The position numbers were made by a program, and so were the translations under genes. Shown here in pieces: positions 60,974 to 64,000 of a stretch of 64,000 nucleotides of DNA (positions within the stretch are counted from its first letter, which is position 1; each line of letters starts with the position of its first letter). This stretch comes from Candidatus Polarisedimenticolia bacterium (lineage in GTDB: Bacteria; Acidobacteriota; Polarisedimenticolia; Gp22-AA2): the NCBI GenBank assembly GCA_036001465.1, contig DASYUH010000004.1, forward strand, positions 1 to 64,000. The letters are read 5' to 3'. Under the pieces are notes generated by a model. That model had not been told where the DNA came from and searched no databases. It worked only from the letters and a program-made list of their open reading frames with translations.

Positions 60974-63900
60974 GTGTTCGTCTGGTCCATGACGTCCGCC
61001 CGCCTCTGTGCCTGGGGACTCGCCCTGCTGATCGGGTCGGCGGCGCCCCTGGCGTCGCCCGCATCCGGGTCAGCGCCCGCCGGCGCCCCCCCGATCTCGG
61101 AGGAGCCCGCACCCGCTCCGACACCGGCACCGACGCCTGCACCGACTCCCGCGCCGACGCCCGCCCCGGAGCCGCCCGCGGCGCAGGCTCCGCCCGGGTC
61201 CGGCGGGGCCCCCGCCGCGCAGGCGCCTGCCGGATCCCCGGCGCCCGGGGAGACGCCCGCGGACAGGGAGGAGCCGCAGGGCGCGCCGCAGTCCGGCCGG
61301 GGGACCATCGGCCGGATCGTCGTCGACGGGAACGCCCGTGTCTCCGACAGCGCCTTCTTCAACAGCCTGAAGCTCAAGACGGGGGAGCCTTATGACGAGG
61401 GGGCGATCCAGGACGAATTCCGGCGCCTCTGGGACCTCGGACTGTTCGACGACATCAACGTGGAATCGCGCCGCAGGGAAGGGGACGTCTATGACGTGAT
61501 CTTCCACGTGCGGGACCGGCCGCTGGTCGGCACGATCTCCTTCGTGGGCATGAAGGCGGTGACGGAGGCGAACATCCAGGAGAGGCTCAACCAGGCGAAG
61601 GCGGAGATCCGTCGCGGCCAGCCGGTGGACTTCTCGCTCCTGCGCAAGGCCGAGGCGGCGATCACCCAGCTCCTGGCGGAGAAGGGGTATCTCGAGGCGC
61701 GCGTCCGCGCGCGCCTGACGCCATCCGGCCAGGGGCAGCGCGAGGTGACCTTCGACATCCGCGAGGGGTCGAAGACGAAGATCAAGGAGATCGACTTCAC
61801 GGGCAACCACCTCTTCACGAATCGCCGCCTGCGCAAGATGCTGAAGCTGACCAAGCAGGCGTTCTGGCTGACGGGCTGGGCGTCCTCGAAGACGCTGTAT
61901 CACCCCGCCAAGTTCGACCAGGACTCCGAGAACATCCGCACGGCGTACAAGAGCGTGGGCCACCTGGACGTGGCGATCCAGCCGGAGATTGTCGATCTGG
62001 TGCCCCGGGGAAAATCCGCCGGCCGGAAGGGGAAGGGGGGCGGGCAAGCGACGGCGGGCGGCCCCACGGACGTCGTGGAGGCCGACCAGGAGGAGGACGA
62101 GCCCGAGCCGGTCGCGCCGCCCCCTCCTCCGCCCGGCGAGACCGAGAAGCAGCGGAAGAAGCGGGTCAAGACCGAGGAGAAGGCGCGGCGCAAACGCGAC
62201 AAGAGACCCAAGAAGTGGGTGAAGCTCACCGTGCCGATCGAGGAGGGGCTGCAGTACAGGGTCGGCAAGATGGCGATCGAGGGGAACAGCGTGTTCAGCG
62301 AGCCCGAGATCCTGGCGCGCGTGCCGTTGCGTCCCGGCATGGTGTTCAACGACTCCGCCCTCAAGTACGGCACCAAGCGGCTGGAGGAGGACTACGGCGA
62401 GCGCGGCTATTTCTACGTGTCGATCGATCCGCGGGTGGAGAAGCGCGATCAGGTGGCCGACCTGACCCTGACGGTCACCGAGGACAAGAAGTATTTCGTC
62501 AATCGCATCGAGTTCTCCGGCAACACCACGACGCGCGACGGTGTCCTGCGGCGCGAGGTGCCGCTGGGGGAGACGGATCTGTTCAACGTGCGCCGGCTGC
62601 GCCTCGGCATCCGCAAGATCGCCCAGCTCGGCTACTTCCAGGTCGGCGACGATCCGGTGGTCAAGCCGGAGGGACAGACGGACCGGGTCGACGTCGAGGT
62701 GCAGGGGACGGAGTCCAGCCGCAACGAGATCCAGGTGGGGGGCGGCGTGTCGGGCCTCGAGGGGGGGTTCTTCCAGGCCTCCTACTCCACCCGCAACTTC
62801 CTGGGGAGGGGGGAGATCTTCTCCGCGTACATCCAGACGGGAACGCGCGCCAACCGCTACTCTCTCAATTTCACCGAGCCCTGGTTCATGGGCCGGCCCT
62901 GGACGCTGGGCTTCTCCCTGTTCAAGCGGCAGACCGACTATGTCGGGTTCCGTCAGATCGGCAGCGGCGGCACCGTCTCCCTGGGGCGCCTGCTCGGCGC
63001 GTTCAGCCGTTTCGACGTGGCTTACGGGTTCGAGACGGTGGACCTGGTGACGAGCCAGGCGGGATTCCCGGTCAACCGCCGGAACAGCTCGACCAGCAGC
63101 GTCACCACCCTCTACACCATGGACACGCGCAACAATTTCTTCCGGCCGACCCGGGGGTTCCGGCTGCAGGGGAGCTTCGAGTATGCCGGAGGCCCTCTCG
63201 GAGGGGACAACTACTTCAGGAAGCCGCGCCTGGACGGCACGCTGTACCTGCCGGGGTTCATGCGCAAGCACTACATCGGCCTGAACGCGTCCTATGGGCG
63301 CGTGACGCCGTTCGGCGGCCGGGTCGTGCCGGTCTACGAGCGCTACTTCCTGGGCGGTGAACGGAGCCTGCGGGTGTTCCGCACGCGGGAGGTGAGCCCG
63401 GCCCGGCGCGACCTCGACGTCAACAACAACGGTTTCATCGACGTGCCGGAGGACGCCGGTCCGGACGGCGTCTTCGAGGGATGCGAGGACCTGAACGGCA
63501 ACGGCAAGCAGGACGCCAACGAGCCCGATCGGGGCAACTGTCTGCTCGATCCGTCCGAGGACCAGAACCACAACGGCGTGCTCGACAACGAGGACCTGAA
63601 TCACAACGGCATCCTGGATCCGGGCGAGGACCTGAACGGCAACGGCCTGCTCGACGTCGAGGACGCCAACGGCAACGGGCGGCTCGACCTGGGGGAGGAC
63701 CGCCCGGACGGCTCCTGGACCGCCTTCTGCCCGGCGGACGACCTCAACATGGACGGCCAGAACAATGATGGAGGGGTTGATAACGGCAACTGCCGGCTCG
63801 ATCCGGGGGAGGACACCAACGGCGACGGCGTGTTCGGAACGGTCTTCCCCGGCGGCAACCAGTTCCTGCTGTTCAACGCCGAGTACACGATTCCCCTGGC

Positions 63901-64000
63901 GGACGCGGTCGAGATCGCCCTGTTCTACGACGCCGGCAATGCCTTCGATGACGGAGAGCGGGTGCGGCTGAACGGCATGCGCGTGGACTACGGGCTGGAG
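60974..64000 (+). CDS. bamA: Outer-membrane assembly factor BamA with loop-6 calcium-type repeats, 3' partial
   Basis: The frame is open to the right edge; 1009 residues are visible. Signal peptide about 1-30, then a Pro/Ala-rich linker (about 33-105). POTRA domains run from about 112 to 585 (IGRIVVDGNARVSD, VGTISFVGMKAVTE, IKEIDFTGNHLFTN, VGKMAIEGNSVFSE, VNRIEFSGNTTTRD). One of them carries a 70-residue Lys/Glu/Pro-rich insert (about 345-414). The barrel starts near 590. GGERSLRVFRTREV (near 795-808) is the loop-6 V-R-G-F motif, here L-R-V-F. Right after it, about 812-955, lie repeats like D-x-N-x-N-G-x-x-D-x-x-E-D, at least seven, and four cysteines; then the barrel resumes. GTG 60974 follows taggag; ATG 60989 is an alternative. 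Confidence 0.9.
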   Translation, partial: MFVWSMTSARLCAWGLALLIGSAAPLASPASGSAPAGAPPISEEPAPAPTPAPTPAPTPAPTPAPEPPAAQAPPGSGGAPAAQAPAGSPAPGETPADREEPQGAPQSGRGTIGRIVVDGNARVSDSAFFNSLKLKTGEPYDEGAIQDEFRRLWDLGLFDDINVESRRREGDVYDVIFHVRDRPLVGTISFVGMKAVTEANIQERLNQAKAEIRRGQPVDFSLLRKAEAAITQLLAEKGYLEARVRARLTPSGQGQREVTFDIREGSKTKIKEIDFTGNHLFTNRRLRKMLKLTKQAFWLTGWASSKTLYHPAKFDQDSENIRTAYKSVGHLDVAIQPEIVDLVPRGKSAGRKGKGGGQATAGGPTDVVEADQEEDEPEPVAPPPPPPGETEKQRKKRVKTEEKARRKRDKRPKKWVKLTVPIEEGLQYRVGKMAIEGNSVFSEPEILARVPLRPGMVFNDSALKYGTKRLEEDYGERGYFYVSIDPRVEKRDQVADLTLTVTEDKKYFVNRIEFSGNTTTRDGVLRREVPLGETDLFNVRRLRLGIRKIAQLGYFQVGDDPVVKPEGQTDRVDVEVQGTESSRNEIQVGGGVSGLEGGFFQASYSTRNFLGRGEIFSAYIQTGTRANRYSLNFTEPWFMGRPWTLGFSLFKRQTDYVGFRQIGSGGTVSLGRLLGAFSRFDVAYGFETVDLVTSQAGFPVNRRNSSTSSVTTLYTMDTRNNFFRPTRGFRLQGSFEYAGGPLGGDNYFRKPRLDGTLYLPGFMRKHYIGLNASYGRVTPFGGRVVPVYERYFLGGERSLRVFRTREVSPARRDLDVNNNGFIDVPEDAGPDGVFEGCEDLNGNGKQDANEPDRGNCLLDPSEDQNHNGVLDNEDLNHNGILDPGEDLNGNGLLDVEDANGNGRLDLGEDRPDGSWTAFCPADDLNMDGQNNDGGVDNGNCRLDPGEDTNGDGVFGTVFPGGNQFLLFNAEYTIPLADAVEIALFYDAGNAFDDGERVRLNGMRVDYGLE

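Follow-up and report, generated by a model that had tools for sequence, protein, structure and literature searches.

The stretch analysed here (the window) comprises 64,000 nucleotides of contig DASYUH010000004.1 of a Candidatus Polarisedimenticolia bacterium, and it closes with a long bamA gene that appears to start at the ATG at position 60989, judging from the signal-peptide-like MTSARLCAWGLALLIG. About 39 of its codons lie beyond the window end, and the complete open reading frame (ORF) was read in L007. The window protein scored 448.8 bits against TIGR03303, exceeding the curated equivalog cut-off of 297.15, and gave Pfam scores of 195.6 bits for POTRA, with five POTRA stretches, and 127.3 bits for Omp85. 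Downstream of bamA follow, in order, ORFs which we named by sequence recognition rather than by profile scan as Skp/OmpH-, LpxD-, FabZ- and LpxA-like. The TIGR03303 match, the POTRA and Omp85 domains and this canonical gene neighbourhood rule out another type of Omp85 protein, and the equivalog score and the locus together carry the assignment despite a one-position departure in the loop 6 (L6) motif. We thus conclude that the protein is the genuine, main BamA of this bacterium of Acidobacteriota subdivision 22, in agreement with the first-pass annotation of the window.

The same genome encodes a second Omp85 protein, a TamB-TamA-like fusion in which TamB, POTRA and barrel parts form one chain of 2175 residues (L089:4492-11019, G000:C15); its RGF motif is canonical and its loop 6 is short. 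BamA itself also contains a Pro-Ala-Pro-Thr repeat at its N-terminus, behind the signal peptide (window positions 61117-61180), and a charged, Lys/Arg- and Pro-rich low-complexity insert of about 70 residues between POTRA parts (62008-62217). At the same place in the POTRA region, the counterparts in relatives differ in sequence and are rich in Lys, Ala and Glu.

The main feature of this BamA is an in-frame insert of 146 residues in loop 6 of the barrel (Table 1). It begins ten ordinary residues after the conserved GGERSLRVF motif and is followed by GGNQFLLFNAEY; its best bounds lie within a few bases of those proposed at first pass (63405-63845, about 145 residues). To count strands, we used AlphaFold2 on the barrel of an ortholog that is 81% identical and whose gene is complete (L038). 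In this 16-strand model, 11 strands precede the insert and 5 come after it, which identifies the interrupted loop as loop 6, also as initially annotated. The insert received no confident fold from AlphaFold2, with a pLDDT of about 30 within the barrel and of 37 when modelled alone, values which say nothing about a calcium-dependent fold either way. It is strongly acidic (37 D+E versus 5 K+R) and holds the four cysteines already noted at first pass, which are the sole ones of the mature protein.

Table 1. Features of the bamA gene and its loop 6 insert (positions in the window)
Feature	Position	Strand	Basis or remarks
bamA gene	60989..64000	+	proline-rich N-terminus, POTRA domains, 16-strand barrel; continues past window end to contig position 64120
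Conserved L6 motif GGERSLRVF (R-V-F for R-G-F)	63353..63379	+	sequence
L6 insert of EF-hand-like repeats, 146 residues	63410..63847	+	sequence; between strands 11 and 12 (ortholog AlphaFold2 model)
EF-hand-like loop 1, DVNNNGFIDVPE	63416..63451	+	motif match
First cysteine-bounded cassette, C-EDLNGNGKQDANEPDRGN-C	63482..63541	+	alignment; present in own family, absent from sister family; disulfide inferred
EF-hand-like loop 2, DLNGNGKQDANE, within first cassette	63488..63523	+	motif match
EF-hand-like loop 3, DQNHNGVLDNED	63560..63595	+	motif match
EF-hand-like loop 4, DLNHNGILDPGE	63593..63628	+	motif match
EF-hand-like loop 5, DLNGNGLLDVED	63629..63664	+	motif match
EF-hand-like loop 6, DANGNGRLDLGE	63662..63697	+	motif match
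Second cysteine-bounded cassette, C-PADDLNMDGQNNDGGVDNGN-C	63728..63793	+	alignment; disulfide inferred
FxDxG lid-lock partner, strand 13, as FYDAG, intact	63923..63937	+	sequence; motif definition from PMC4490367

The insert contains loops matching the 12-residue motif D-x-[ND]-x-[ND]-G-x-x-[DN]-x-x-[EDN], with D, N or E at positions 1, 3, 5, 9 and 12 and G at position 6. Six canonical matches were found, whereas 20,000 shuffles that preserved the composition averaged 0.06 and never exceeded 2, so that the calcium-binding-type repeats recognized earlier are well founded; about three degenerate loops lie beside them. At the DNA level the array contains tandem repeats of 33 and 69 bases. The ligand pattern, D-x-N-x-N-G-x-x-D-x-x-E, is that of EF-hand, dockerin and thrombospondin type 3 loops (PF13202, PF00404). 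In contrast to a true EF-hand pair, however, the loops follow each other in tandem at a spacing of 11 to 13 residues, which leaves little room for helices flanking each of them, and the window copy remains under the Pfam cut-offs (15.7 bits against an EF-hand cut-off of 25.9). The insert of an ortholog, at 41.5 bits, exceeds the EF-hand_5 cut-off of 25.9. Searches of solved structures in the PDB with the insert sequence gave no convincing match. Taken together, the sequence pattern strongly suggests that the insert binds calcium, and two disulfides, one for each cysteine-bounded cassette, are probable.

The residues of the lid lock are retained, namely the Arg of R-V-F and the FxDxG partner on strand 13. 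Relative to the typical motif (V/I)RG(F/Y), the window BamA keeps Arg and Phe and has the Gly replaced. The first-pass annotation had read this change from R-G-F to R-V-F correctly; every class member read carries R-V/I/A/L-F, never G, and since the change is thus class-wide, it is unrelated to the insert and ruled out as its consequence. Published work places loop 6 inside the barrel, where it is essential, and shows that Escherichia coli BamA tolerates the loss of P676-C700 but is severely affected by insertions immediately behind RGF (PMC3871556). In TamA and BamA, up to 30 extra residues are accommodated at a variable site of L6 without disturbing the lid (PMC4490367). Counting residues from the motif puts the probable start of the insert at roughly the equivalent point. 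The window protein shares with the BamA/Omp85 family (TIGR03303, PF01103, PF07244) the POTRA domains, the 16-strand barrel, the L6 Arg, FxDxG and the canonical gene neighbourhood, and differs from it in R-V-F instead of R-G-F/Y and in its 146-residue array at the variable site.

Of the order's 12 genomes, 11 yielded a bamA gene, and each of these genes encodes the insert; the remaining genome (G002, 75% complete) yielded no bamA. Three of the bamA-bearing genomes are public Acidobacteria metagenome-assembled genomes (MAGs), and the presence of the insert in independent MAGs rules out an assembly artefact, the concern raised at first pass. All five full-length members of the family that we compared carry the insert, with 67-81% identity over the region, and in the sister family of the order it is shorter (about 92-100 residues) and lacks cysteines; array length thus differs between relatives at the same site. 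In one genome of the own family (G005; L014, G005:C134) the insert is frameshifted near a contig end, most likely by a sequence error. Identity at ligand positions reached 98.8% among members of the family and 95% when both families were taken together; it was 57% at the remaining positions of these loops and 77% in the barrel. The comparison is somewhat circular, since the window's own motifs served to select the positions. The dN/dS values of the insert (0.09-0.33) were close to those of the barrel (0.07-0.24).

Outside the order the array was not found in BamA in the genomes surveyed. When 396 genomes of the phylum were searched with an insert profile, the 12 belonging to the order were the only ones to match at E<=1e-6 (0 of 384 others), and at E<=1e-5 the profile matched 2 of 29 other class members, neither of them in BamA. 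From R-x-F to the strand that follows, the loop spans 28-64 residues elsewhere in the class and mostly 9-26 residues beyond it. In two families of the class, f11 and f12, loop 6 of BamA contains a single EF-hand- or dockerin-like loop (DLNGDGVVNRAD and DRNGDGILDRND; L031, L035, L185 and L192), which could represent either an early stage or an independent gain.

We observed repeats of the same type in several other outer-membrane proteins (OMPs) of the order. LptD scored above the PF04453 cut-off in all 12 genomes, and each of the 10 genes read has the repeats in a single loop that connects the PWLDV strand to the IGPKLSR strand (G000:C40 = L169; L165-L175). The extent of this array varies: family f1 has a single canonical loop, the arrays of G010 and G011 are long, and in the own family one canonical loop is accompanied by cysteine pairs. 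Where the LptD loop could be read in class members that do not belong to the order, it was short and free of repeats. In the genome of the window, insert-like repeats also occur in seven Oar-like TonB-dependent receptors (L097, L098, L100, L105, L109, L110 and L113), in what seems to be a single loop that includes a conserved CEG...EDxDCDG segment; proteins that look exported and match no Pfam family contain them too. Pfam identified Plug, CarboxypepD_reg and barrel domains in one of the seven receptors and in three relatives, and the other six were recognized by sequence. An OmpW-like small barrel of G006 (L148:246-2183, G006:C120) has tandem EDTNMNGILDSGED-type repeats. The strand and turn pattern suggests that the repeat loops of LptD, the receptors and the OmpW-like barrel face outside. 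In G010, the BamA and LptD repeats are 77% identical at the DNA level along 116 bases, and exchange between the genes or shared codon use is therefore possible. Because all of these proteins come from one clade, the co-occurrence in BamA, LptD and TonB-dependent receptors counts as one evolutionary observation rather than as independent replication and cannot be weighed statistically.

These observations lead us to favour, as the probable explanation, a calcium-rigidified extracellular loop of BamA with a structural function, one instance of a surface feature of the whole clade, a BamA-specific gate being unlikely. The array would be exported, would take up calcium and fold only at the calcium-rich cell surface, and would then form a rigid, acidic, protease-resistant cover over the mouth of BamA. 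The inner half of loop 6, with its Arg and the FxDxG lid lock, would work as in any BamA. The array's role is probably structural because it is one case of calcium-type repeats found clade-wide in OMP surface loops, and it may consist in loop stabilization, shielding or surface packing. A precedent is BtuB, in which a five-aspartate calcium cage near the ligand pocket restrains loop L2 (PMC7360065). Both cases involve Asp-based calcium sites restraining an extracellular OMP loop, although BtuB has two sites built from five aspartates and no repeat array.

The strongest rival to this structural reading is a canopy-like role in assembly, with the array acting as a cis counterpart of the Bacteroidota BAM canopy for clients whose long calcium-type loops fold outside. 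The Bacteroidota BAM combines a calcium-loaded extracellular subunit with an enlarged L5 platform in a proposed folding vestibule (PMC12611786), and within the present order calcium-type loops occur in BamA, LptD and TonB receptors alike. However, LptD and TonB receptors are clients rather than OMP assembly factors and nevertheless carry the same repeats, so that the trait is not BAM-specific, and the co-occurrence lies within a single clade; we regard an assembly role as unlikely. A shield, in which the array would mask the exposed face of BamA against attackers such as phages and bacteriocins and calcium would serve only as glue, is very improbable. BamA is a surface target of bacteroidetocins (PMC8546649), and the variable array length at one site would suit a shield, but the purifying selection and near-invariant ligands are not the diversification expected under attack.

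The first-pass annotation had suggested that the insert might gate or cap the barrel or respond to outside calcium. Capping of the BamA mouth is possible. A calcium-dependent gate or sensor, in which the array would move with calcium and thereby open or close the barrel or alter BAM activity, draws on the essential packing of L6 in the barrel and on the position of the array close behind the conserved half of L6, but we consider it very improbable. Gating is not favoured because the lid-lock residues remain intact and the insert occupies a known variable site of L6, which tolerates variation without altering the lid; R-V-F is, moreover, independent of the insert. The presence of the same repeats in LptD, TonB-dependent receptors and an OmpW-like protein, unrelated to BamA, leaves the sensor proposal unsupported as well, since it points to a general surface property rather than to a BamA-specific gate. 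Least probable of all is an acidic low-complexity expansion which binds no metal and has spread by repeat slippage or recombination: the tandem DNA repeats, the G010 identity between BamA and LptD and the low pLDDT would all fit it, yet ligand positions are conserved far above others, dN/dS is low and the cysteines are conserved.

Other lineages have enlarged the extracellular side of BAM by different means. In Flavobacterium johnsoniae, the extracellular subunit BamM carries seven Ca ions (PMC12611786). That complex resembles the one proposed here in being a lineage-specific extracellular enlargement with calcium in its extracellular part, and its own L6 is also enlarged, by 16 residues; in contrast, its calcium lies in a separate lipoprotein and its large enlargement is L5 (76 residues), whereas the order described here has one chain and uses L6. 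BamA of Bacteroides thetaiotaomicron likewise shows a clade-specific expansion of a surface loop, but there it is a Tyr-rich EL3, and calcium is unmentioned in the report (PMC12578637). The terms loop 6, calcium, VRGF, canopy and acidobacteri are all absent from a BAM review (PMC13067283). A limited literature search found no earlier report of calcium repeats in BamA or LptD loops; their occurrence in an LptD loop, Oar-like TonB-dependent receptors and an OmpW-like barrel is new here.

Few assembly machines of the outer membrane are as conserved as BamA and LptD, and what is known of them derives almost entirely from work on Proteobacteria and, more recently, on Bacteroidota. A clade with calcium-type arrays in BamA, LptD and receptors represents another way to elaborate the extracellular side of BAM. 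The repeats across the OMPs of this order suggest that calcium maintains the shape of the cell surface. The broader proposal, that the outer-membrane surface of the order has been rebuilt around calcium in its two essential assembly machines, BamA and LptD, and in many client receptors, all with arrays folding outside in calcium, making envelope assembly and stability calcium-dependent, is tentative and on balance doubtful. Whether the repeat loops need outside calcium for folding or stability can now be tested directly. If they do, surface architecture would be tied to environmental calcium in these uncultured soil and groundwater bacteria.
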